A DNA stretch of 64,000 nt from Porphyridium purpureum (Eukaryota; Rhodophyta; Bangiophyceae; Porphyridiales; Porphyridiaceae), in contig VRMN01000008.1 in NCBI GenBank assembly GCA_008690995.1, positions 558,001 to 622,000 of the forward strand, in the 5' to 3' direction. The notes under the pieces are model-generated. The model was not told where the DNA came from, searched no databases, and worked only from the letters and a program-made list of their open reading frames with translations. Shown piece by piece: positions 1-30,642 of the stretch; within the stretch, counting starts at the first letter, position 1; each line of letters starts with the position of its first letter. The translations under genes and the position numbers were made by a program.

Positions 1-299
1 CAGGTGCGACGCCTTGATGAGCGATTACGTGGGTCGACAGCATCATTTGAGCAAGCTCGTGCCTCTGCGTTTCACGCCGTGGCTTACGACATGCAGTGTA
101 ATCGAAAATCAGATGGGCCTTGTTTCCGCATGCACCACATGTGCATGGTCTTCAAAGAAAAGTCTGCTGCCGATTTCTCGAACCTTGTCACAAGAAAAGG
201 TTGCGAGCTGCGTGTGACGGAAAGACACTTTGCCATTGTGGGTAGGCTTTGCGGCGACTCAGAGCGGAAAGCTGAGAGTCCAGCCAAGTCACAGGGGCC
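1..299. other. Upstream region of the dipeptidase gene
   Basis: No gene is supported here. Short reading frames cross it in several frames, but none has recognisable protein character. It presumably holds the promoter and 5' leader of the M20 dipeptidase that starts at 300. It contains no CACTGTAC motif and no obvious GA-rich leader. Confidence 0.5.
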
Positions 300-6956: not shown

Positions 6957-7165
6957 CGTAATCAATCCACTCTTCCCGCAAACTTACTCCATCTCAACCC
7001 TAGAGAACATGTAGTTCTACTCTAACCTTTCCTATGACAAGGCTATTTCGGATTTGCGATCTGAATCTTTTCTTTGGGTGGCGGTCGCGCGCGAGGGAGC
7101 CGCTCGACCGAGAACTTCTAAGAAAGCGTCTAGCTCAAAGTACAAGTGTCGTTAATCGTTGAACG
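6957..7165. other. Upstream region of mtnA and of the permuted tRNA gene
   Basis: About 209 bp between the mtnA start and the 3' fragment of the permuted tRNA gene on the plus strand. No coding signal is visible. Bases 7156-7165 form the leader strand of the bulge-helix-bulge described for the tRNA. Confidence 0.4.
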
Positions 7166-7179
7166 CCCCACCAGGAGCA

Positions 7180-7242
7180 ACACTGGTTGCGCCCGAGGCT
7201 TATCGGTTTTTACAACCGGTTGAGTTTTCCGGGCGCGCCGGC
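7180..7242 (+). other. Intervening segment of the permuted tRNA gene
   Basis: These 63 bp lie between the encoded 3' end (discriminator A at 7179) and the 5' end (G at 7243) of the tRNA. In a permuted gene this segment is removed by the enzymes that form ordinary tRNA ends. CCA is not encoded directly after 7179. A T5 run (7207-7211) and a T4 run (7225-7228) inside it could weaken polymerase III read-through, which is an unresolved oddity. Confidence 0.65.
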
Positions 7243-7261
7243 GCTCCTGAAGCTCAGTGGT

Positions 7262-7283
7262 GTACCGCAACCGTGTACCGCCG
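7262..7283 (+). other. Predicted 22-nt ectopic intron in the tRNA D-loop
   Basis: The D-loop spans 29 nt (7256-7284) where 7-11 are normal. Removing 7262-7283 leaves AGTGGTA, a standard D-loop that keeps the GG pair. The 3' boundary fits a 3-nt bulge (7282-7284) next to the D-stem, with 7257-7260 pairing to 7278-7281. The intron folds back on the exon in a 9-bp hairpin with loop 7266-7272. The 5' boundary is uncertain by one or two bases. Confidence 0.65.
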
Positions 7284-7374
7284 AGAGCACCAGTCTTATG
7301 AGCTGGGAGTCGTGGGTTCAAACATGGGCGGCGCTTATGCTTGGCGAGGCGGAGCAAGGCTCCGCGCAAAGATC

Positions 7375-7378
7375 TTTT
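7375..7378 (+). terminator. Candidate polymerase III terminator (TTTT; second run TTTTT at 7390-7394)
   Basis: T4 and T5 runs lie about 50-70 bp downstream of the permuted tRNA's 5' fragment, as expected for the end of its primary transcript. Identification rests on position only. Confidence 0.4.
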
Positions 7379-7827
7379 GGAACGAAAACTTTTTGAGCGT
7401 GGCGCTGGCGTCGGCGGTGGAAGCTGGTACTCGCGAAGTAATCGTGTAATGTAACAACGCAGCATTCCTGACATCGCTGCAATCAACAAGCCTACTCAGC
7501 AGAGCAGCGGGGGGAAAAATCAAACAAACTGATCGACAGCGATTGCGTGACGGCGTGCCTGAAAACAATGCGCGTCAGTACAGGACCATATCCTCTTTCA
7601 AATCTTATGGCGGTAAGAGACGCCAAAGAGAAGGGGACTACCATTTACTATTCCTCGAAGTGCTCTGGGACGACGCGCACGCGAGCATCGTCGCACAAGG
7701 ACTTCTCCATCGACAAGATTGCGCGGCACACGAGTTGAACGGAGGGCACACGCTTACGCCACTGAGCTGCACTTACGCTATCAGACTGGCCGCTGGCGTA
7801 CGGACTTATCTGGCATGACGCAGCCAT
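7379..7827. other. Region downstream of the tRNA and the phycoerythrin gamma gene
   Basis: About 450 bp with no recognisable gene. The plus-strand frame reaching 7449 is the tRNA region read through and has no protein character. The stretch next to 7828 would be the 3' UTR of the gamma gene. Confidence 0.45.
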
Positions 7828-8829
7828 TTAGTAGCGGTTGGTGGTGGGGCGGACGGAGCTGGCGGCGGCCGGGAAACGAGAGGTCAGTTTCTCCTCATAG
7901 TTGCAGCCATTGTTGTGCCAGTCGTTCGCGACCCTGCGCGCATTGAAGCGCGCCGCCGCCTTGGCGCCTGCCGACATCTGGCGTGCGCGGAAGTTGGCCG
8001 ACTCCTTGGCGACTCGGGCGTTCTCGGCCATTCCCTTGACCGTGCCGTCCGCGCACGAGGTCGTGTAGACGCCGTACGGAATCGAGCGCTTCTTCATCTG
8101 CATCTGCACTGACTTCTGAATGTACTCCTCGGCCTTGTTTGCCGGCTGCGCATAGCGGTCGCACGAAAGCAACGTCTCCTGCTTGCCCATCACGTACGCG
8201 GCGGCGGTCTTGTTGTACTGCTGGAAGATCTTCTCCTCATAGTTGCAGATGTGGCCCACCGCCTTCATCGCGTACTTTCGGCCCTCGTAGTAGTCAAACG
8301 ACATCTCGCGCGCCGAGCGCTGAGCCTGACGGAACTGCTTTGCCAGCGACGCGGTGCGCGCGTTCTCGGCCATGCCCTTGGACGCGCCCTCGCTGCACTG
8401 CGTGGTGTACACGCCCGAGCCCGCGGCCGACGCCTTGGCCTGCATGGCGATGGATCGCGCCATGAAGTCGTCTGCCTTGCGGCCGTAGAAGCCGAGGCGG
8501 AGCCCGGACGGATCCTTGCTCCTCTTCAGCGTGCCGAGGAACTTGAACGCCGGCGACCTGAAGGTGTTGCCCAAGTTGAGCGCGCGCGTCTCGTTGGTCG
8601 GCGGGTTGGGCTGCACCTGCCTCTTCATGGGCTTGGTGTTGAGCAGCTTGTCCCACTTGCTCGTGGACGTGTTTGTCTGGTACTTCCTGTACGAGTTCTT
8701 ATCCTGAATGATAATGCGCATGCTCACCGCCGCCTTTGCCGCTCCGCCCACGCGCGTCTGCTCCTTCCTCGGTGCCGCGCATCCCATAAACCCAGACGAA
8801 ACCTGGGCGCCCACCACAAACGCCGCCAT
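7828..8829 (-). CDS. Phycoerythrin gamma subunit (phycobilisome rod linker), plastid-targeted
   Basis: A 333-residue nuclear-encoded gamma subunit that sits in the cavity of the phycoerythrin hexamer, links hexamers in phycobilisome rods and carries bilins. The ATG at 8829 gives MAAFVVG, the Phe-containing start of rhodophyte plastid transit peptides; the frame upstream has only GTG. Residues 1 to about 37 are the transit region. The mature part is an internal duplication. Repeat 1 (about 119-216) and repeat 2 (about 233-325) both have GVYTTxC, the KGMAENAR motif and CNYEEK. Candidate bilin-binding cysteines are near 145, 195, 223, 259 and 309. Phycoerythrin gamma subunits are a red-algal feature, which is the main basis for the organism call. 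Its promoter region is interrupted by the copia element starting 440 bp upstream. Confidence 0.9.
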   Translation of the reverse strand: MAAFVVGAQVSSGFMGCAAPRKEQTRVGGAAKAAVSMRIIIQDKNSYRKYQTNTSTSKWDKLLNTKPMKRQVQPNPPTNETRALNLGNTFRSPAFKFLGTLKRSKDPSGLRLGFYGRKADDFMARSIAMQAKASAAGSGVYTTQCSEGASKGMAENARTASLAKQFRQAQRSAREMSFDYYEGRKYAMKAVGHICNYEEKIFQQYNKTAAAYVMGKQETLLSCDRYAQPANKAEEYIQKSVQMQMKKRSIPYGVYTTSCADGTVKGMAENARVAKESANFRARQMSAGAKAAARFNARRVANDWHNNGCNYEEKLTSRFPAAASSVRPTTNRY

Positions 8830-9632: not shown

Positions 9633-12600
9633 TCAGACGACGCACCAACCATGGCGTTGCTTTTGGAACGAGTCGACTGCGAGATTCTTCGTCAAACCGT
9701 CTGCAAGATTGTCTTTGCTGTTCACGTGCACGAAGTCTGCCAGGCCGTCCTTGGACACTTCGTTCAGCCATTTCAGGCTGATTTTCTGCATCTTGTGAAG
9801 ATGCAACATCTTGTCGCTCCATCCCTTGTTGATCGCGTTTAGCGCGGTCTCATTGTCGACATACATGGCCACCTTTGGCCATGCATTGTGCCATTCTTCG
9901 ATAAACACGCCCAGCGGAAAGACACGATACTGCACTGCTGTATGTGCAGCGATCAGTTCCGCCTCGGCGGTTGAGGTCGCGGTCCGGCGTTGCCGCCCAC
10001 TTGACCAGTCCACAAGGTGTCTCGTATTCTTACCAACAAAGAAAGTGCACACGCCGCTAGTCGACCTCTCTGCGCTGAAGTCTGCGTCAGTATAACAAGA
10101 TACAGACACAGGCAAGGCCCTGCCGGCACCCGAAAGAGGTGGCACGCGAAACACCAACACCGCATCGGCACTGCCCTGCAGGTACCGCATGATGTCGTTC
10201 AGGCCCTTTTCGGCTTCTTCACCCCAGCGATCCGTGCAGCGCGCTACCGTACCAACTGCGAATGCCAGATCTGGCCTGGTTGTCCGAACCAGCCACAAAA
10301 TACGCCCCAAGGTGCGTCTCACGCTCTTGTCACAGACCTCGCCATCTCTGTCGGGCTCAGGCTTACAAGACATCGGAGTCTTTCGCGCCTGCCTCTCTTG
10401 ACCGTCTGCTAGCATATGCCGTGCATACTCTCGTGAACTCATCACCCAGGCACCGTCCATGTCTTTGTCGACATAGAACCCGATGCCCAGGAACCGCACA
10501 GGGTTTTCTTTTGTCGCTTCGCGCATGTATTCAACCGCGCGGGTGATGGAGAACTCCTTTTTCATCTCCGCAACCGCCTCCCGTATTGCCCCACTGTCAC
10601 CGAAAACCGCCCCATCATCAACGTATAGGACTGTCCATTCCGTCTTACCCAGACGCTTTCTCCAGTATACGTTCTTATCTGAGGCGGATTCTTTCCAACC
10701 CAGACCTTCAAGTCTTGACCGTGCGTGAGCTCCAAAGTCGCTTCCGCTGCGTGGCAAGCCATACAGCGCCATGGGCAGCCTGACGACGGGCCTCTCCATG
10801 GCTTCGAGCTTTGACGACAGACTGGACGGTATGCAACCTCTCAACCAGCGAGTAAGACCGGCTAATTCGACGAATGTCGGAGGACCCCCGAGGGGCGCGT
10901 GTACGTATGCGTTGTCCACGTCGAAGAACGCAGCGTCAGCGTGTTCTCCGTGCTCCAACAGCGCTGCGCTTAATGCGGCCCTGATGGCTACTAAACCAGG
11001 CGGCTTCTCCCAATCAAATGGGTTCACAACCAGGGTTCCGGTTGCGTCTCTAACCACGCACCCTTGACACACAAGTCGGCACTTGTGTTTCCACGCGCTG
11101 GGCCCTAGTTCGGCATTTTTGATTCCGAACACGGCCTTCAGCTTCACAAACTGTGCGTGCGGCGTTCGCGTCGCCGTTCTGCGCTCGACCGCTTTCTCCA
11201 GCGGAAGCGCGCCGACGCTTCTCAACGCGGTCAACTCGCGGACAAAAGCATCGCGACCGGCACTCGAGGCCATGGCACTCTTGGATTCGATCACCTGCGT
11301 TACCAGCAGCTCTTGAACTAAGGCCGTCGCTCCGGCAAGAGGCACGCTGACCTTCTCTGCCCGCGCCGACACCCCTTTTTCCGCAACTTCTACGAACTTC
11401 ACCCTCGCGCGCCGCAAGGCCCCGCTCCTCCCGCGCCTGTGTTCGCCAAGACCTTGGGCTTGTGAGCCGAGCAATCCGAGCGCCTGCGCTTTCGAGCGCA
11501 CGTCTTTCGCTGTTTTACCAGCCAAGGCGGCCTTACTCTCTTTGATAATTTGCGACCACTTTGGACCCAGTCGTGTGAAGCCGCCCGAAATAGCCGCAAT
11601 TTGCTCGCTGCTCCACGAGCCCTTTCGCGATCGACCGTCTACTGTCGCGAGCGGCCCCGTCGGAGGCGCTTCTGTTCCGTTTGCACGTACGCATTCTTTG
11701 AAACCTGTTTCAATCTCATTACTTTTCTCTCTTGGGTCGGCCGGCGTCTCGGTTTCCGAGGTCTCGCCGGTCTCGTCGCTCTTATCATTCCTACCGCTTC
11801 CAGGGTACTGCTGCCCCTCGTCGTCAGCAACTGGTTTAGGGTCCGGCGGGCGGGCGAATTCTTCTTCAACGGGCCTGAGCTGTTTTCTTACGACGGGATA
11901 CTTTTCTTTGAGCAGTTTCCATTCTTGTACCCATCGCGCCGCTGCCGGCCTCATATCTGAAACAGGGATCACCAGGCAATTCAGTCGTTGTTTGATGACT
12001 GCTGATTCTGGTATCCGAAAACCGACCACGATTGCGACAGAGCCCTTCGGTTCATTCTTGTCGGAAGCCTCGTCGTAAACTACGACGCCCCGGCCAAACG
12101 CAGGCAGCTCCAATTTCCATTTAGTATTGAATCGTTTCTCGTACGCGGTGGCACCGCCTCCGCGCCCAGCCCAAACGAGATTTCGAGCATCCGCCCAATA
12201 CCGAGCCGCGAAGCAGAACCATGACGATGGCAACCCGGACTGGATCAGAAGCGCCCTCACCGTCGCATTCATGTCCCTGTGAAGCCTCTCTTGACTGGCA
12301 TGCGTGTTTGAACGCCTCGCTATGCCCTTTTCGTGGGCAACCAGGTGGTCTCGGAGCATGTCTTCGAAAACACCTCCAAATTCTCCGCCGCCATCGCTTT
12401 TCACCAGCCGAGGCCAACCGCGGCCCCGCTGTATCTCTCGAAACGCGAACGAGGCCGTGTCGGCGAGTTTATTCCTCAGGCCCGTCACAGAGACCCAGCC
12501 CGTTCCGATGTCTTTGTGTACCAGAACCCATCTCGTCCCATCCACACCAACCGAGGAGGGGTCCACGAGATCAATGGAGACGGCCTCATTAAAGCCGATG

Positions 12601-14225
12601 ATTGCATTGGAGTCACTCTCTTTGCGACGCACCGCGCGCACTCTCTGTATTTTGCCCAGGGCACAAATCCCACAATCTTCCTTCGCAGGCATATGCAAAA
12701 GGTCGTGGTCTAGAACCCTCACCGGCTCTGTGGCTCTAATTGGCTCATTGGGCTTCTCATTGATTTTCTCCGCATCCGTGCTGAGTAGTTCCATGCCTCC
12801 CACGGACAAATGCGCCTTCTGCGCCCTCAGCCAGTCCAGGCCCACTATGAGCTCGTGACGCGCTCTGTGTACCACCGCGGACAACTTTGCATCCCGAGCC
12901 CCATGCATTCTCAACGTCAGGCGCGCGGTCCCTTCGGGCCTGCACATGGTACCATCCGCCAAGCGAACTCCTCCCACGGCAGCGCGCCGGTCCACCGCCA
13001 CACCAATTTTCTCACAGAAAGCGAGCGAAGCATATGTGTTCGTCGCGCCTGTATCAAACACTGCGTCGACTTGGTGACCATTCACCCACATTTTTCTCTT
13101 CACAAGCCTCTCGACTTTTGGTCTGGTGCTCGCAGTGAGTAGTTCCAGCTCAGCCGCCTGTGCGGCGAGCTCCGGGCAATCCTTTTTCCAATGCCCTATG
13201 CGTTTGCAGTTGGCGCATTGATCCTTTTTCAGACCATCTCTCCTCCCGCTGTCCCGAGCCTTCCACTTCTTTCGACCACTCTTTCTTTTACCGCCGCTGC
13301 CAGCACCTACGCTTTTCCCGCCGCGCTCAGCGGAGCCCAGCTCCATGGGAGCCGGTCCGTCCCCGTAGGGCGTCTGCCCTTTCTTGGCAGTCCGGGCGCG
13401 TTCCGGGTGCATGATGGCATCGATCTCCGAAGCTACGCGGATAACTTCTTCCAAGCTGGATGTGCCCTTAAGTTCGGTTTGCACCCTAATGTCCTTGTCA
13501 AGCCCTCGCTTGTACTTGTCGAACAATTCAGACTCTGTGGCGTCTTCAATGCGCAGACAGAGCGAGGAGAAAGTATTTGTATACTCTTCCACGCTCGTGC
13601 CATTCTGCTCCAACGCGAACAGCTCATCTCTAGCCCGAGCGCCTGGGTTCACCGGGGCGAACCGCATCTCGAGCGCGGCTAGAAATGCTTCAACCGTGAA
13701 CGGCTGCTCCCTCAGGCGAATCCACCACAACTGCGCGTCATCCGTCAGGAACCCAGCGAGGTTTCGAACGACCCTCTTTTCGGCTGCGTCGTCCCAAGAT
13801 TCGCCAACCGCCGCGACTTCGTCCTTGTACGGCTCAACCACTCGGTCGCGAGCCGCCGAAATCCACGTCAGGATCTTTACTAGGTCTCTTTTCCCGTCAT
13901 ACGCCGGCATACGTGCAGGTTCAAGCAACTTTCGCCGCTGATGAACCACCTGCCCCGCGCCCGCGGACGCCAAAGCCGATCGCGCTGCTCTTTCGTGCGC
14001 CAAATCGCTCTCCAGACCCTCAATGCGCTGCTGTGCCATGCGTAAGTCGGCGGATAATTCCGCTCTCACCCTGGCCATCAACATGTCAAACTCGGTCGGC
14101 GATGGACCAGCCTGTGCATTGCCTTGCGTACCTCCACCCTGCTGCAGAGGTTGTGCTTCCAACGATTGCTGTCTCGCTGCCATAATTGCGCGCAGACGTG
14201 ACTGCTCCTGCTCACGGTCGTCCAT
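9633..14225 (-). CDS. Copia Gag-Pol polyprotein
   Basis: A single 1530-residue frame with the Ty1/copia domain order. Gag lies at about 90-300, with a CCHC zinc knuckle (CANCKRIGHWKKDC) near 336-350. The aspartic protease DTGATN is near 389. A pre-integrase HMPAKEDCGICALGK motif is followed by an integrase core from about 548 (SDGGGEFGG near 606). The RT of the copia type has YVDD near 1197, and RNase H has YTDAD near 1378. Between integrase and RT, at about 862-915 (DNA 11480-11640), lies a Myb/SANT-like stretch (GSWSSEQ...GPKWSQI...GKTAKDVRSKAQAL) that copia proteins do not usually carry. The frame looks whole. Confidence 0.93.
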   Translation of the reverse strand: MDDREQEQSRLRAIMAARQQSLEAQPLQQGGGTQGNAQAGPSPTEFDMLMARVRAELSADLRMAQQRIEGLESDLAHERAARSALASAGAGQVVHQRRKLLEPARMPAYDGKRDLVKILTWISAARDRVVEPYKDEVAAVGESWDDAAEKRVVRNLAGFLTDDAQLWWIRLREQPFTVEAFLAALEMRFAPVNPGARARDELFALEQNGTSVEEYTNTFSSLCLRIEDATESELFDKYKRGLDKDIRVQTELKGTSSLEEVIRVASEIDAIMHPERARTAKKGQTPYGDGPAPMELGSAERGGKSVGAGSGGKRKSGRKKWKARDSGRRDGLKKDQCANCKRIGHWKKDCPELAAQAAELELLTASTRPKVERLVKRKMWVNGHQVDAVFDTGATNTYASLAFCEKIGVAVDRRAAVGGVRLADGTMCRPEGTARLTLRMHGARDAKLSAVVHRARHELIVGLDWLRAQKAHLSVGGMELLSTDAEKINEKPNEPIRATEPVRVLDHDLLHMPAKEDCGICALGKIQRVRAVRRKESDSNAIIGFNEAVSIDLVDPSSVGVDGTRWVLVHKDIGTGWVSVTGLRNKLADTASFAFREIQRGRGWPRLVKSDGGGEFGGVFEDMLRDHLVAHEKGIARRSNTHASQERLHRDMNATVRALLIQSGLPSSWFCFAARYWADARNLVWAGRGGGATAYEKRFNTKWKLELPAFGRGVVVYDEASDKNEPKGSVAIVVGFRIPESAVIKQRLNCLVIPVSDMRPAAARWVQEWKLLKEKYPVVRKQLRPVEEEFARPPDPKPVADDEGQQYPGSGRNDKSDETGETSETETPADPREKSNEIETGFKECVRANGTEAPPTGPLATVDGRSRKGSWSSEQIAAISGGFTRLGPKWSQIIKESKAALAGKTAKDVRSKAQALGLLGSQAQGLGEHRRGRSGALRRARVKFVEVAEKGVSARAEKVSVPLAGATALVQELLVTQVIESKSAMASSAGRDAFVRELTALRSVGALPLEKAVERRTATRTPHAQFVKLKAVFGIKNAELGPSAWKHKCRLVCQGCVVRDATGTLVVNPFDWEKPPGLVAIRAALSAALLEHGEHADAAFFDVDNAYVHAPLGGPPTFVELAGLTRWLRGCIPSSLSSKLEAMERPVVRLPMALYGLPRSGSDFGAHARSRLEGLGWKESASDKNVYWRKRLGKTEWTVLYVDDGAVFGDSGAIREAVAEMKKEFSITRAVEYMREATKENPVRFLGIGFYVDKDMDGAWVMSSREYARHMLADGQERQARKTPMSCKPEPDRDGEVCDKSVRRTLGRILWLVRTTRPDLAFAVGTVARCTDRWGEEAEKGLNDIMRYLQGSADAVLVFRVPPLSGAGRALPVSVSCYTDADFSAERSTSGVCTFFVGKNTRHLVDWSSGRQRRTATSTAEAELIAAHTAVQYRVFPLGVFIEEWHNAWPKVAMYVDNETALNAINKGWSDKMLHLHKMQKISLKWLNEVSKDGLADFVHVNSKDNLADGLTKNLAVDSFQKQRHGWCVV

Positions 14226-25632: not shown

Positions 25633-28600
25633 CTATAGAAAGCTCTCGCCCGACGTGGATCGCAATGCAGTGCCGCGGTGCAAGCTGCCGCGGTTGAACG
25701 CCCACACAAGGGCCGGCGGCAGGGCAGAGGAACTTTCCCACGTCCAGTCCTTCTTCCTTGCCCCCTTCCAAGCCACAAGATACTCGGCCCCGTCGCTCCG
25801 TTCGCGCCTGGCTTTCAGACCTGACACCTCAACGATGTCACCGTCGGCGTTTCCCAGGCTGGTCGAGCGCAATGTATCGTTGCTCAGTAGCGCTCGGTCC
25901 ACTCTCTTCAGCCGTCGGCGATGCACGAAGAATTCTTTGCCGTCATGCGTCTTGAGCCATGCGCGATGCTCGTCAGCACGCTCAACTTCAAAAGGGCCTA
26001 CCCAAGGGTCCGCCAGCTTTCGGCCCTCCCTGCCCAGCGGCGGCTTCCAAACGAACACACAGTCCCCCGGTTCAACGTCAACAATTCGACATGACGCGTT
26101 AAGCTCTCGACGTCGGGCGTCCCGGGTGGCATCATTTTCAACTACTGCGTTGTGCAAGGCCTCGAGCCTGTTGCGCAACAGAATCACAAAGGCGTCCTCC
26201 TTTCTTGCGCTGTCTTGTGGCGCTACTTCCCCTTCGGCGGCCGGGTTGAAGGGTCCCAGCCATGAATTGGCCTCTCGTCCGAACATGAGCTCGTAAGGCG
26301 TCCTCTGCGTCGTGCTGTGTCTAGTCTGGTTGAACGCGGCCACACAGGCAGGCAACCACAAATCCCAATCGTCCTCCGTGACCCACGAAGAAAGCATGTC
26401 GCAGAGTGTCCTGTTAAAGCGTTCGACCGCCCCGTTGGCTTGTGGGTTGTACGCTGTCGTAAACAGCTTTCTAACGCGCAGCATCTTGCATAACTGGCGT
26501 AGAACATCGGCTCGGAAACAGGGCCCGTTGTCGCTCAGAAGAGCTTCCGGTAGGCCAAAGATTGCAGCCCAACGATCCAAAAAAGCCTCGGCAATGGTCT
26601 CTGCCCGCTCGTCTCGCACACATATTGCTATGGTGAACCGAGTGAAAAGGTCGCTCACTACCAGGATTTTTGAATATCCAGTGCTTGTTCTCGGCGTTAC
26701 CGTTAAAACGTCCGCAGCAACGACCTCGAACCGCCGGGTAACGACCCGCTTTCCCATGCGGTGGCTTGTGACAGGGGTCGGTGAGCCCTTTCGCGCGGCG
26801 CAAGTTCTACATTGCTTTACGAACTCCAAGACGTCTTGCAGCCAGCCAGGCCACCAAAACTCCGCGTCGGATATACGTGCCGCCGTCTTGGACACTCCGA
26901 AATGCCCGCTGAAAGGTGCTGAGTGGTAGACATCTAAAATACTGCCCACTAGTCCATCAGGGACTACCTTGCGCGGTTTGTCTTTCAGCGCGGCCCACGC
27001 AAGTCCACTTTCGTCCAGATAGTACTCCGGATAGGAATATACTCGTGGGGACTTTTGCAATGCCGCGAGCTCTTTCGATAGCAGCTCGTCCTCCCTGTAC
27101 GCTGCCTTGAGCCTCTCCGGAGATGGGAGCTCGTAGCCCACGGCTTGACCAATCGCGTGCGGATCATCTTCATCTGTCGGTACTGCAGAATCCTCTGCGA
27201 CGGGATCTCGTCGCGCACGCGTGCGCACTGCGTTCAGTTCGAGACGTGACAGTGCGTCCGGCACTCGATTCAAGCGGCCTTTAACATGCTCGATGGTAAA
27301 CGAAAAGTCCTGAATTGTCAGTGCCCAGCGCGCCAGCCTTCCTCTTGGCTCTTTCATGGACAGGAGCCAACGGAGAGGTTCATGGTCAGTGCGAATGCGT
27401 ACGGTTGTGCCGAAAACATAGTGTCGTACCTTTTTGAGACACCAAACTACTGCAAGGCACTCCAGCTCGGTGACCGTATAATTTTGCTCCGCCGACGTCA
27501 AAGTCCGCGACAAAAAAGAGATTGGCGCAAGCTTCCCGTCCGGCATCTCCTGATACAACGCACCGCCCAGTCCTATCTGAGAGGCGTCGGTGTCGAGAAC
27601 CTTTGGCGCGTTCGGATCCGCCAACACCAGCATCACTTTGTCCGACGTGAGCACCTCTTTGAATCCGTCGAAAGCGCAGCGCGCGTCTTCCCCAAAGCGT
27701 GCCTGCCAGCCGGCGCACTCTAGATCTGTATTGCGGTGTGCCTTCTTTGCATTGACGTCCAAGCCATCCAGCGCTCTCCGGAGCGGCGCCGCGCGATCCG
27801 AGAACCTGGGTATGAAGTCCCTGAACCAATTCACAAGCCCTAAGAAACGCAGCAGCTCTGTTGGGCCCTTAGGGTAAGGCCACTTGAGAATGGCTGCCGT
27901 ACTTTTTCCCCCCGGCCGAATGCGGCCTTCTTCCACTTCATGTCCCAGGAAACTGAGCCTTGCCGTAGCGAATTTGCACTTTTGCAGGGAAAATGTCATG
28001 TTCTCTTCCTGGAACTTGCTTAGCACTACGTCTAGGACCTCCAAATGTTTTTCTATCGTTTTGGTCCCTGTCAACATATCGTCTAGGTACATCAGGATGT
28101 GTTTCCATCGAAGCGACCCAAGTATCGTGTTCACAAGTCTCTGGAAGGTAGCGGGCGAGTTTCGGAGGCCCTGTGCAAGGACTGTGTAGCGGAACAGTCC
28201 CTCCGCCGTTATCATACCGGTGAAGTCCCGCGAGGACTCCGCGAGGGGAACTTGGAAGAAACCGTCAGCCAGGTCCATCACAGAGAAGACTCCACACGGG
28301 AGGAAGCGTCCCATCCAATCTAAGCATTCGCGCACGTCAGGGATTGGGTATCTATCTGGAACGGTGTGGCTGTTCAATTGGCGGAAATCCGTAGTCAGCC
28401 GCCACTTACCGTTTGGCTTTCGAATGATAACGTTCGCGCTGGCATATGGGCCCGAGCAAGGCTCGAGGATGCCCAAAGATAATAAACGCTGGACTAGCGT
28501 GCTCTCGGCCTCTCTTTCAACTTCAGACAATCTACGCAGGCGGGCCGGGGTAAGACGTGCGCCTGGATCAATAGCAATGGAGTGCTCAGTAGACCGTGTG

Positions 28601-29418
28601 CGACCTGGACGGTCCCGGAACACCCTCCAGTGCTTGAGCAACACCGCCCGAAGACCACTTTGGTGAAGCACGTCTACGTGGCTGAGGTCTACATCCATAA
28701 TGCGAGCACGCGTCTCCTCTTCGTCCTCTTGCATTACGTTTGGACTCCCGAGCTTACTTGCGTCTCTTTGCTCTACCCCAACGCAATCAATTAAGTTCAG
28801 TGATTTTGCAGGCGCTCCCTCTAAGAGGCGAATCGTGGCGCCGTCTTTCATTTCGAGCTCGCCCTTGCCAAAGGAAAGCGCGTTAGCATTAGCAACCCAG
28901 AAATCCCATCCCAGGATAAGATCTTCGATAAGATCTTCGGCAACTAATGCGCGCACCTGGTACATTGACTGGCCAATTTGTAGCTGAAGCTCTGATGCTC
29001 CGACAATACCGAGGGAGCTTCCGCCTGCAGTTCGACACTCCTGCGCCACGTCCTGTATTACGGCTCCTAGAGAACTGACCCACTTTGCTCGCGCATATAC
29101 ACCGGCAATCCCTACAGCACCCGTGTCGGCAAGAGCATCTACGGCAGATCCCGAGACCTTGACAGGCGTGCGACCCGATCGCATGACACGTGCTTTGGCC
29201 AACACGCGCACGTACGGGACTCTGCCAGAAGCAGATTCCACCAGATGGTTTAAGACTTCCAAGGTTGGACTCGCTCGCAGGATTCGCTTCGGCCCTAGAG
29301 CTAGATCATCAATCACGGAACTTGTTCGAATTTCGGTGTTCTCTTCACCTACGCTGGGCTTGCGATATCCCAACGCTTCCATGGCCTCATCCACGGCCCT
29401 CCCATTCCACGCTACCAC
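25633..29418 (-). CDS. Gypsy Pol (protease, RT, RNase H, integrase, chromodomain-like end)
   Basis: About 1261 residues. Protease-like DTGAVG is near 92. RT has the LTTDFRQLN block and YLDD (LMYLDDML). RNase H has VLDTDASQIGLGG. The zinc-binding integrase region (H...CRTCAARKG) is followed by the core with LSDNGPCFRAD and YNPQANGAVERFN. The C-terminus (EYLVAWKGARKKDWTWESSSAL) looks like a chromodomain, which in chromoviruses steers integration to chromatin. The frame is open throughout. It is probably expressed as an extension of gag by read-through, since its own first codon in this range is GTG. Confidence 0.92.
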   Translation of the reverse strand: MVAWNGRAVDEAMEALGYRKPSVGEENTEIRTSSVIDDLALGPKRILRASPTLEVLNHLVESASGRVPYVRVLAKARVMRSGRTPVKVSGSAVDALADTGAVGIAGVYARAKWVSSLGAVIQDVAQECRTAGGSSLGIVGASELQLQIGQSMYQVRALVAEDLIEDLILGWDFWVANANALSFGKGELEMKDGATIRLLEGAPAKSLNLIDCVGVEQRDASKLGSPNVMQEDEEETRARIMDVDLSHVDVLHQSGLRAVLLKHWRVFRDRPGRTRSTEHSIAIDPGARLTPARLRRLSEVEREAESTLVQRLLSLGILEPCSGPYASANVIIRKPNGKWRLTTDFRQLNSHTVPDRYPIPDVRECLDWMGRFLPCGVFSVMDLADGFFQVPLAESSRDFTGMITAEGLFRYTVLAQGLRNSPATFQRLVNTILGSLRWKHILMYLDDMLTGTKTIEKHLEVLDVVLSKFQEENMTFSLQKCKFATARLSFLGHEVEEGRIRPGGKSTAAILKWPYPKGPTELLRFLGLVNWFRDFIPRFSDRAAPLRRALDGLDVNAKKAHRNTDLECAGWQARFGEDARCAFDGFKEVLTSDKVMLVLADPNAPKVLDTDASQIGLGGALYQEMPDGKLAPISFLSRTLTSAEQNYTVTELECLAVVWCLKKVRHYVFGTTVRIRTDHEPLRWLLSMKEPRGRLARWALTIQDFSFTIEHVKGRLNRVPDALSRLELNAVRTRARRDPVAEDSAVPTDEDDPHAIGQAVGYELPSPERLKAAYREDELLSKELAALQKSPRVYSYPEYYLDESGLAWAALKDKPRKVVPDGLVGSILDVYHSAPFSGHFGVSKTAARISDAEFWWPGWLQDVLEFVKQCRTCAARKGSPTPVTSHRMGKRVVTRRFEVVAADVLTVTPRTSTGYSKILVVSDLFTRFTIAICVRDERAETIAEAFLDRWAAIFGLPEALLSDNGPCFRADVLRQLCKMLRVRKLFTTAYNPQANGAVERFNRTLCDMLSSWVTEDDWDLWLPACVAAFNQTRHSTTQRTPYELMFGREANSWLGPFNPAAEGEVAPQDSARKEDAFVILLRNRLEALHNAVVENDATRDARRRELNASCRIVDVEPGDCVFVWKPPLGREGRKLADPWVGPFEVERADEHRAWLKTHDGKEFFVHRRRLKRVDRALLSNDTLRSTSLGNADGDIVEVSGLKARRERSDGAEYLVAWKGARKKDWTWESSSALPPALVWAFNRGSLHRGTALRSTSGESFL

Positions 29419-29430
29419 GCGTCCGCGTAG

Positions 29431-30642
29431 TCACTCGCTCGCAGGCGCCGCCGAGGTAGCTCTGCGCACCGGTGCTGGCGCCAGGCAGTCTCCGGCATAG
29501 TGTCCTGTCCCTTGGCAGCGGCGACACACCACTCGATCCGAGTTGGCCATTAAACGGTTCCCCCCGATTCCGGGCACGCCCAAAACGGCTGCCACCCGGT
29601 CCGCCAGGAACTCCACTTCGATCAACTTTTGATCCTCTGTCTCCTTCGCCGGGTCAGGAGGTACACCCCCAAGATTTGGTTCGGAATCATGAAGTACATT
29701 GACCGCAGCCCCCGGTGGACGGAAAACCGGTCTCCCTTGGGCAAAGCTTCGTCCCTTCTCCAGTGTCGACCCGTAGTTTTTCTCCAACGGTAAAATCATT
29801 CCGAAGAATGTTTCTGTGGCAGCGTGGAGACGACCCATCTGTTGAATATCTCGAGGAAGTCCTCGAACAAAGTCGCTCTTCATCGACGCCTCGGATTTCC
29901 CAAGAGCAGCGCCGAGCTCGTACACGGCGCGGTGATAGTTTGCCACTGACTCGCCCTTCGTCCATTTCCTCTCGCAGTACTCTTGTTCCACAGATTCCAA
30001 AAGCTGAGGAGACCAGAAAACCGAACGCGCCCACGCCCAACGCTGCTGAGCCGAGTACTCCGTCGCAAGCTCGCCGTTCTTCTCGGCAGTGCGATAAACC
30101 TGCTCAGCCGAATCCGCAAAAGCTAGAACCACAAACTTTGCCGTGAGGTCGGCTGGAATGTGGCGACATGCTTCCACCCAGGTCAAATACGTGGTTTCGA
30201 ACCTGAGATCACGCGCGTGACGGATGCGACAGTCTTTCATCTCGAGAATGACCGACCTCTTCATTTCTTGCTCGAGTTTGATGAGCCGGAGCTCCTCAGT
30301 GGACATTGTCAACAGGCTCGAACCATCAGAGACCGCCAGTGCAGTCCCGATTCTGGACGCGCGGCTGGGCTCCCCCGGTGGCTCGGCACCATGTTCGGCG
30401 GATCTTGGCCGAGAACCGCGATCCTGCGCGTCCGCAATCGTCGGTTCGTCCAGCTGCGGTCCGAGACGCTGAAAGATCATCTCCATTCTCTGACGTATCT
30501 GGTCAATGCTTTCGCGCAGCTGCTCCTGGCCGGATGCGATCAGCTCTACACGTCCCTGGAGTGCCGCCACATCAGCCGTGACGCTCGCTACAGTTGGACG
30601 CCCGGCCATTTCCCCCAAGATATCCGACAGGCGTCCGGACAT
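29431..30642 (-). CDS. Gypsy Gag
   Basis: A 403-residue capsid/nucleocapsid protein from the ATG at 30642. It has an N-terminal coiled coil (about 20-60), a helical retrotransposon-gag region (about 120-300) and a single CCHC knuckle near the C-terminus (CRRCQGTGHYAGDC). It looks whole. Confidence 0.9.
   Translation of the reverse strand: MSGRLSDILGEMAGRPTVASVTADVAALQGRVELIASGQEQLRESIDQIRQRMEMIFQRLGPQLDEPTIADAQDRGSRPRSAEHGAEPPGEPSRASRIGTALAVSDGSSLLTMSTEELRLIKLEQEMKRSVILEMKDCRIRHARDLRFETTYLTWVEACRHIPADLTAKFVVLAFADSAEQVYRTAEKNGELATEYSAQQRWAWARSVFWSPQLLESVEQEYCERKWTKGESVANYHRAVYELGAALGKSEASMKSDFVRGLPRDIQQMGRLHAATETFFGMILPLEKNYGSTLEKGRSFAQGRPVFRPPGAAVNVLHDSEPNLGGVPPDPAKETEDQKLIEVEFLADRVAAVLGVPGIGGNRLMANSDRVVCRRCQGTGHYAGDCLAPAPVRRATSAAPASE

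Follow-up and report, generated by a model that had tools for sequence, protein, structure and literature searches.

Putative circularly permuted tRNA-Ile(UAU) gene with a probable D-loop intron in the red alga Porphyridium purpureum

Organization of the tRNA-Ile(UAU) locus

The plus strand of the window, the 64-kb stretch of Porphyridium purpureum DNA that was analyzed, carries at positions 7156-7327 the two parts of a tRNA, the 3' half (7166-7179) lying upstream of the 5' half (7243-7322) on the same strand. A 10-nt leader strand is followed by the 3' half, a 63-nt spacer, the 5' half and a trailer strand. The coordinates that the original prediction had assigned to the two halves proved exact. 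The locus comprises the following features:

7156..7165, +, leader side of the bulge-helix-bulge (BHB) motif: h' strand 7156-7159, H strand 7160-7163, first two bulge bases 7164-7165
7166..7179, +, tRNA 3' half (C60-A73): C60; T-stem 61-65 at 7167-7171; acceptor 66-72 at 7172-7178; discriminator A73 at 7179
7180..7242, +, intervening sequence from A73 to G1, 63 nt: T5 at 7207-7211, T4 at 7225-7228
7243..7262, +, exon 1 of the 5' half: acceptor 1-7 at 7243-7249; A8 and A9; D-stem 10-13; D-loop to G20a
7263..7283, +, probable D-loop intron, 21 nt, between 20a and 21, with a relaxed BHB
7284..7322, +, exon 2 of the 5' half (A21-A59): T-stem 49-53 at 7312-7316; T54-A59 at 7317-7322
7297-7299, +, anticodon TAT, in exon 2, with G37 at 7300
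7323..7327, +, trailer side of the BHB: third bulge base 7323, h' strand 7324-7327
7375..7394, +, candidate RNA polymerase III terminators: T4 at 7375-7378, T5 at 7390-7394

The acceptor stem has 7/7 Watson-Crick pairs and the T-stem 5/5 pairs, both counts as predicted, and the D-stem (4/4) and the anticodon stem (5/5 counting one U-G) are also complete. The junction of the halves forms a strict hBHBh' motif at 59/60. In this motif the T-stem acts as h (5/5), H is formed by 7317-7320 and 7160-7163 (TTCA/TGAA, 4/4 Watson-Crick) and h' by 7324-7327 and 7156-7159 (strands ATGG/TCGT, 4/4 paired with two G-U), while the two 3-nt bulges, 7321-7323 and 7164-7166, lie on opposite strands. The canonical 3-nt/4-bp/3-nt motif with four outer pairs claimed earlier is thus present. 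Cutting after the second base of either bulge joins A59 to C60 and yields the T-loop TTCAAAC, as had also been claimed. With the D-loop intron taken out, the mature tRNA has 73 nt, the anticodon UAU and A73. CCA is not encoded after A73. Of the consensus bases, G18G19, U33 and TTC are present and U8 is replaced by A8.

The 5' half, 80 nt long, exceeds positions 1-59 by about 21 nt, an excess accounted for by the segment 7263-7283, which is a probable BHB-like intron in the D-loop. Its H helix, 7257-7260/7278-7281 (GTGG/CCGC), has four pairs including one G-U, h' has 2/4 and h 1/4, and removal leaves the D-arm GCTC-AGTGGTGA-GAGC. Twelve candidate cuts had H = 4, three of them leaving a D-loop of 8-10 nt. 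The cut that was picked, 7262/7284, gives a D-loop of 8 nt, the same as in the yeast tRNA; 7263/7283 (10-nt loop, h' 3/4) and 7264/7285 (9-nt loop) are other possible cuts. The sequence GTGTACCGC occurs twice within 7260-7281 with a 13-nt period, across the 5' edge of the intron and near its 3' end.

Unconstrained RNAfold analysis of 7150-7335 produced a minimum free energy (MFE) structure of -79.7 kcal/mol. All four tRNA arms (acceptor, D, anticodon and T) and the H helix appear there in permuted order, and the spacer 7180-7242 is predicted to form a single long hairpin that caps the acceptor stem. This structure lacks h', 7327-7330 pairing with 7150-7153 instead; it also folds the D-loop intron otherwise than the drawn BHB and shifts pairs within the anticodon arm. 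When the drawn structure was forced on the same segment, the energy was -77.1 kcal/mol, a cost of 2.6 kcal/mol. For the joined tRNA the strict cloverleaf (-31.1 kcal/mol) and the MFE structure (-31.7 kcal/mol) differ only in the anticodon arm.

Genes of this type IV arrangement (junction at 59/60) were sought with a scan demanding full acceptor and T-stem pairing (G-U allowed), D-stem ≥ 3/4, anticodon stem ≥ 4/5 and H ≥ 3/4, together with U33, A14, GG and TTCR. On both strands of the 64-kb window the scan found one place, the Ile(UAU) locus, and in 292 kb of fetched loci (overlaps counted) only Ile(UAU) and Lys(UUU). Simulated first-order Markov sequence (9.6 Mb in 150 strands of 64 kb) contained no match, and on this ground a chance origin of the full permuted cloverleaf was rejected. 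When 12 perfect pairs and TTCR were all that was demanded, such a loose scan of 100 simulated 64-kb strands returned 20 matches, in one of which H was 4. Because such chance matches occur, the end pairing is not decisive by itself and the cloverleaf context carries the case. A repeat or SINE was also rejected, the sequence having a single genome match in a DNA search that skips very common words.

The protein encoded at 7828-8829 on the minus strand is identical in 333/333 residues to PDB 6kgx_M1 (LR7, R-phycoerythrin gamma chain). The entry 6kgx derives from P. purpureum, which fits the earlier guess of a Porphyridium-type alga. Large minus-strand frames at 9633-14225 and 25633-30642 resemble, by eye, copia-like and gypsy-like retrotransposon polyproteins.

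Identity of the tRNA and disrupted tRNA genes in the genome

In an ungapped comparison the joined Ile(UAU) was identical to yeast tRNA-Ile(UAU) at 55/73 positions and five other Porphyridium tRNAs at 34-45/73. A gapped comparison gave 59/75 columns, and 43-54 identities for nine other Porphyridium tRNAs. This identity to the yeast tRNA is the highest among the tRNAs compared, in line with the close likeness claimed originally. The DNA has G37, where Ile(AAU) has A. As a rule, transfer RNAs with U36 carry t6A at A37, and with G37 in the DNA this modification would be impossible in Ile(UAU) unless the base is edited. An intact Ile(AAU) gene is present elsewhere in the genome (L049), and ATA makes up 12 of the 4914 codons in nine ORFs of the window.

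The original prediction had proposed looking for another tRNA-Ile(UAU) gene as a check and had named an intact one elsewhere as part of what would refute it; none was found by pattern and BLAST searches of the 22.16-Mb assembly (46 contigs). BLAST of the joined sequence matched this locus only. The pattern GAGCRNNNNNYTTATA had 20 matches, none a tRNA by eye (28 in the reversed-pattern control); TTATRA-12..14-GGTTCRA had six, of which the sole tRNA was the Ile(UAU) locus (reversed control 4); TTATAA-13..15-GTTCRA had six, none a tRNA (reversed control 10); and AGCTCAGTGG-8..34-GAGC...YTTAT had one, the Ile(UAU) locus (reversed control 0). These searches are blind to a gene combining an anticodon-loop break with a different D-stem, to further introns in the searched stretches and to sequence absent from the assembly.

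Standard tools did not recognize the gene: at the locus ARAGORN found 0 genes and Rfam, at the gathering threshold, 0 matches. Model R1, trained without Ile(UAU), gave 26.3 bits with the wrong 3' half aligned, filters on or off, probably because the spacer and intron are too long for the model. R1 scored 27-52 bits on eight of its linear training genes, and R2 gave 26.7 bits on the linear training gene L002, above the two permuted Leu genes listed below; the scores of these models alone are weak evidence for permutation.

At least six permuted tRNA genes are present in the genome, Ile(UAU) and the following five, which were found by eye among the RF00005 matches and two sets of A-box pattern matches:

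G000:C2:2091229-2091293, -, Lys(UUU) (L013/L046): type IV, 59/60, 27-nt spacer; R1 (trained without it) 71.2 bits
C14:661337, +, Thr(UGU) (L016): type II, 37/38, 22-nt spacer; R2 (trained without it) 59.8 bits
A-box C11:964956, +, Cys(GCA) (L048): type II, 37/38, 4-nt spacer; R2 48.0 bits
A-box C11:1462518, +, Leu(AAG) (L099): type II by arrangement, 37/38; R2 24.1 bits
A-box C45:208983, +, Leu(CAG) (L100): type II by arrangement, 37/38; R2 24.8 bits

Lys(UUU) has H 4/4 Watson-Crick, h' 2/4 and an acceptor with 4/7 Watson-Crick pairs, all its arms being paired if G-U counts. Thr(UGU) has H 4/4, h' 2/4 and D-stem 3/4, and in Cys(GCA) the acceptor has 6/7 pairs and the BHB is at most relaxed (H 1/4). 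Both Leu genes have a 7/7 acceptor counting G-U, a 3/4 D-stem and a BHB that is likewise at most relaxed, with H 2/4 in Leu(AAG) and 3/4 in Leu(CAG); since their R2 scores fall below that of linear L002, it is the arrangement of their halves and the numbers of pairs that identify them as permuted.

In the genome-wide RF00005 run, which scored 63 of 475 candidates, there were 17 matches, 12 of them above the cut-off; the run is no census, because Ile(AAU), Cys and both Leu genes were not listed. All 17 matches of the first A-box pattern (reversed control 13) were read, and six were tRNA genes. The second pattern had 22 matches (reversed control 30), one being the known Thr gene. Four others were fetched, of which L099 and L100 are the permuted Leu genes, and L101 and L102 have no recognized partner half; L101 (G000:C45:291797, minus strand) contains the A-box-like TGGCCGAGAGGTTTAAGGC. 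A very loose pattern had 1086 matches against 859 in the reversed control, and 30 loci (L060-L089) among its matches listed entered the type IV scan only.

Several linear genes are interrupted as well. Two have introns recognized by eye in the T-loop:

L011, linear, eMet: 16-nt T-loop intron, fits a cut at 59/60, H 4 pairs
L014, linear, Arg(UCG): 10-nt T-loop intron, fits a cut at 59/60, H 4 pairs

This is the same cut as in the permuted type IV genes. Ala(UGC) (L010) and Arg(UCU) are, by eye, linear and interrupted; ARAGORN names Arg(UCU) as a Lys gene with an intron. The D-arm is disrupted also in Ala(UGC), by eye and with provisional cut sites. Gly-, Val- and Gly-like tRNA genes (L012, L015 and L018) apparently have one or more introns. 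The linear genes found by ARAGORN were Lys(CUU), Phe, Arg(ACG), Gln(CUG), Ala(CGC), Leu(CAA), SeC and Ile(AAU).

A survey of red algae that included P. purpureum and used tRNAscan-SE at default settings reported 97-165 tRNA genes for the multicellular species and 22-26 for the unicellular ones, with the exception of G. sulphuraria, which had 82 (PMC10496412, in excerpt). The six or more permuted and the intron-bearing tRNA genes detected here suggest that ordinary tRNA finders undercount in such genomes, and disrupted genes would explain the low counts of the unicellular species.

Expression signals and status of the gene

Between -60 and -15 the Ile(UAU) gene has an A+T content of 0.56, a longest A/T run of 5 and no TATA-like hexamer. 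The corresponding values for 18 comparison tRNA genes, L015 and L018 being left out, are 0.60-0.87 and 8-30, and 13 of the 16 tested have a TATA-like hexamer upstream. Most measured tRNA genes, linear and permuted alike, are preceded some 25-50 nt upstream by an A/T block, mostly TATATA-like. The reading as a permuted tRNA-Ile(UAU) gene was therefore only partly supported: the arrangement and the BHB at 59/60 stand, but the D-loop intron had been missed and the AT-rich block found upstream of the 18 other genes is lacking.

The A8, the G37 and the T5/T4 runs between the halves, listed by the original prediction as open questions, are all real. Position 8 is T in 18/18 other genes, four of which were found by patterns demanding T8. 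T5, likely a terminator, follows several other tRNA genes of the genome; in Ile(UAU) it lies at 7390 after the 5' half, but T5 and T4 are also present inside the spacer. Among the nine other spacer- or intron-bearing genes checked, the five permuted ones have no internal T5; the internal T runs seen were T4 in the anticodon loop of Lys(UUU), two T4 in Val-like L015 and one T5 in the doubtful L018. An upstream TATA-like element has been described for most, not all, permuted genes of Cyanidioschyzon merolae (PMC3978253, in excerpt). As the element is not universal there, its absence and the spacer T runs make expression less likely without counting against the permuted arrangement.

Proteins resembling two subunits of the splicing endonuclease were detected. 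L019 is Sen2-like, with Sen2 as its closest PDB entry (E 1.2e-13), and L020 is Sen34-like, with Sen34 as its closest (E 4.4e-20). There is also a Tau95/TFC1 match at C14:198373- (27.5 bits, cut-off 23.7), unlike what was reported for C. merolae, so the argument made there for dispensable A and B boxes is weaker in Porphyridium. TFIIIC may act in Porphyridium; if it does, the reversed position of the A and B boxes would be a problem.

On balance the locus is fairly likely to be a working, nuclear, single-copy, circularly permuted tRNA-Ile(UAU) gene of type IV with a D-loop intron. This reading is supported by the complete arms, the strict BHB, the predicted fold, the lack of type IV matches in simulated sequence, the likeness to yeast tRNA-Ile(UAU) and the failure of the searches to find a second copy, as well as by the five sibling permuted genes, the two linear genes that fit a 59/60 cut, the Sen2/Sen34 proteins and the use of ATA codons. 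It is weakened by the missing AT-rich block, the spacer T5/T4, A8, G37, the Tau95/TFC1 match, the differences between the MFE and the drawn structure and the low R1 score. By analogy with C. merolae, a single transcript would extend from the leader through the 3' half, the hairpin spacer and the 5' half to the trailer. The splicing endonuclease (Sen2/Sen34) would open the T-loop BHB at its two bulges, and a circular RNA would arise when a ligase joins A59 to C60; the D-loop intron would be excised likewise. The spacer would then be removed by RNase P, cutting on the 5' side of G1, and tRNase Z, cutting on the 3' side of A73, and CCA would be added last. The transcription, the circular intermediate, the order of the steps and the reading of AUA codons are all modelled on that alga. 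For C. merolae, excerpts of PMC3978253 describe BHB cutting and ligation into a circle, early removal of introns outside the anticodon loop, removal of the spacer by RNase P and tRNase Z, and then CCA addition.

The main rival is a decaying or recently silenced permuted Ile(UAU), its promoter lost or left behind, with AUA read by Ile(IAU) from the AAU gene or by a missed Ile(UAU). The missing upstream block, the T runs within the spacer, A8 and G37 would all suit decay, as would the intact Ile(AAU) gene, the rarity of AUA and the blind spots of the pattern and word searches. The structure argues against it: none of about 66 paired positions (the four arms, H, h' and the H of the D-loop intron) is broken, whereas two of about 12 near-invariant unpaired positions are changed, and random damage should, as a rough expectation, strike pairs first. 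Nor did BLAST find a parent copy in the assembly. Decay is considered unlikely.

Much less probable is a permuted tRNA with a different kind of promoter or a role other than reading AUA, in which A8 and G37 are tolerated or altered. The complete structure without an AT block and the unexpected G37 beside U36 would agree with this, but there is no positive evidence of another role, and the likeness to the yeast tRNA speaks for the ordinary one. A linear gene with its 5' half completed downstream of 7323 is highly improbable and disfavoured: RF00005 does align 7243-7330 as one tRNA, but at just 19.6 bits (cut-off 29, E 0.19) and with a wrong 3' end, CATGGGCG, that pairs poorly with GCTCCTG, and an exact 12-base partner was found by a search that covered the upstream side only.

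Relation to known permuted tRNA genes

By 2014, 34 permuted tRNA genes had been recorded from six algae and one archaeon (PMC3978253, in excerpt), and such genes were later reported also in Auxenochlorella (PMC12633428, in excerpt). According to Table 1 and other excerpts of PMC3978253, the type IV (59/60) permuted genes of C. merolae are Ala(UGC), Arg(CCU) and Lys(UUU), Arg(CCU) having in addition a D-loop BHB intron at 14/15. Like these, the Porphyridium Ile(UAU) gene has the 3' half first, a BHB at 59/60 in the T-loop and no encoded CCA, and its 63-nt spacer is comparable in length to those of C. merolae (7-74 nt). It differs from them in coming from another order (Porphyridiales instead of Cyanidiales, NCBI) and encoding a different tRNA, and in the relaxed-BHB D-loop intron at 20a/21, the absence of an upstream AT block and A8.

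The tRNA-Ile(UAU) gene of C. merolae, as far as the excerpts show, is likewise disrupted in both the D-arm and the T-arm. However, it is linear with introns at 12/13, 37/38 and 53/54, whereas the Porphyridium gene is permuted at 59/60, with the D-loop intron at 20a/21 and no anticodon-loop intron. Porphyridium Lys(UUU) shares with Ile(UAU) the type IV arrangement and an H of 4/4 Watson-Crick pairs, but has no intron seen, U8, an upstream TATA-like block, a 27-nt spacer without T5 and an h' of only 2/4. The permuted tRNAs of Thermofilum pendens share the 59/60 junction, but they are archaeal, with spacers of 1 and 7 nt, encoded CCA and anticodon-loop introns (PMC3978253, Table 1 and excerpts).

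It had been proposed that a Porphyridium-type alga with a break in the T-loop would widen the known range of permuted tRNA genes. Such a break is already known from the three C. merolae genes (PMC3978253, in excerpt); the range is widened more by the five other permuted genes than by Ile(UAU). The literature searched, which lies mostly outside the subscription journals, contained no report of a permuted tRNA in Porphyridium. As far as that literature shows, the host is new for permuted tRNA genes and the kind is already known.

Two permutations are shared by Porphyridium and C. merolae: that of Lys(UUU), with its junction at 59/60, and that of Leu(CAG), with its junction at 37/38. The overlap in anticodons is thus two of six, both with the same junction, which is not significant alone (0.13 for an overlap of three). 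The identical junctions fit a common descent of these two permutations. Tentatively, permuted genes might be ancestral in red algae and not a peculiarity of the Cyanidiophyceae of hot, acid habitats; the two shared permutations would then come from a common ancestor, and Ile(UAU) would be a later permutation in Porphyridium of a gene with D- and T-arm introns, such as C. merolae keeps. Permuted tRNA genes are known from few lineages, and whether they are relics or recent is treated as an open question (PMC3978253, in excerpt). A transformation system for P. purpureum has been published (PMC6110788, in excerpt). With at least six permuted genes and linear genes carrying introns at 59/60, this mesophilic red alga provides a second red-algal system for the path from intron to permutation.
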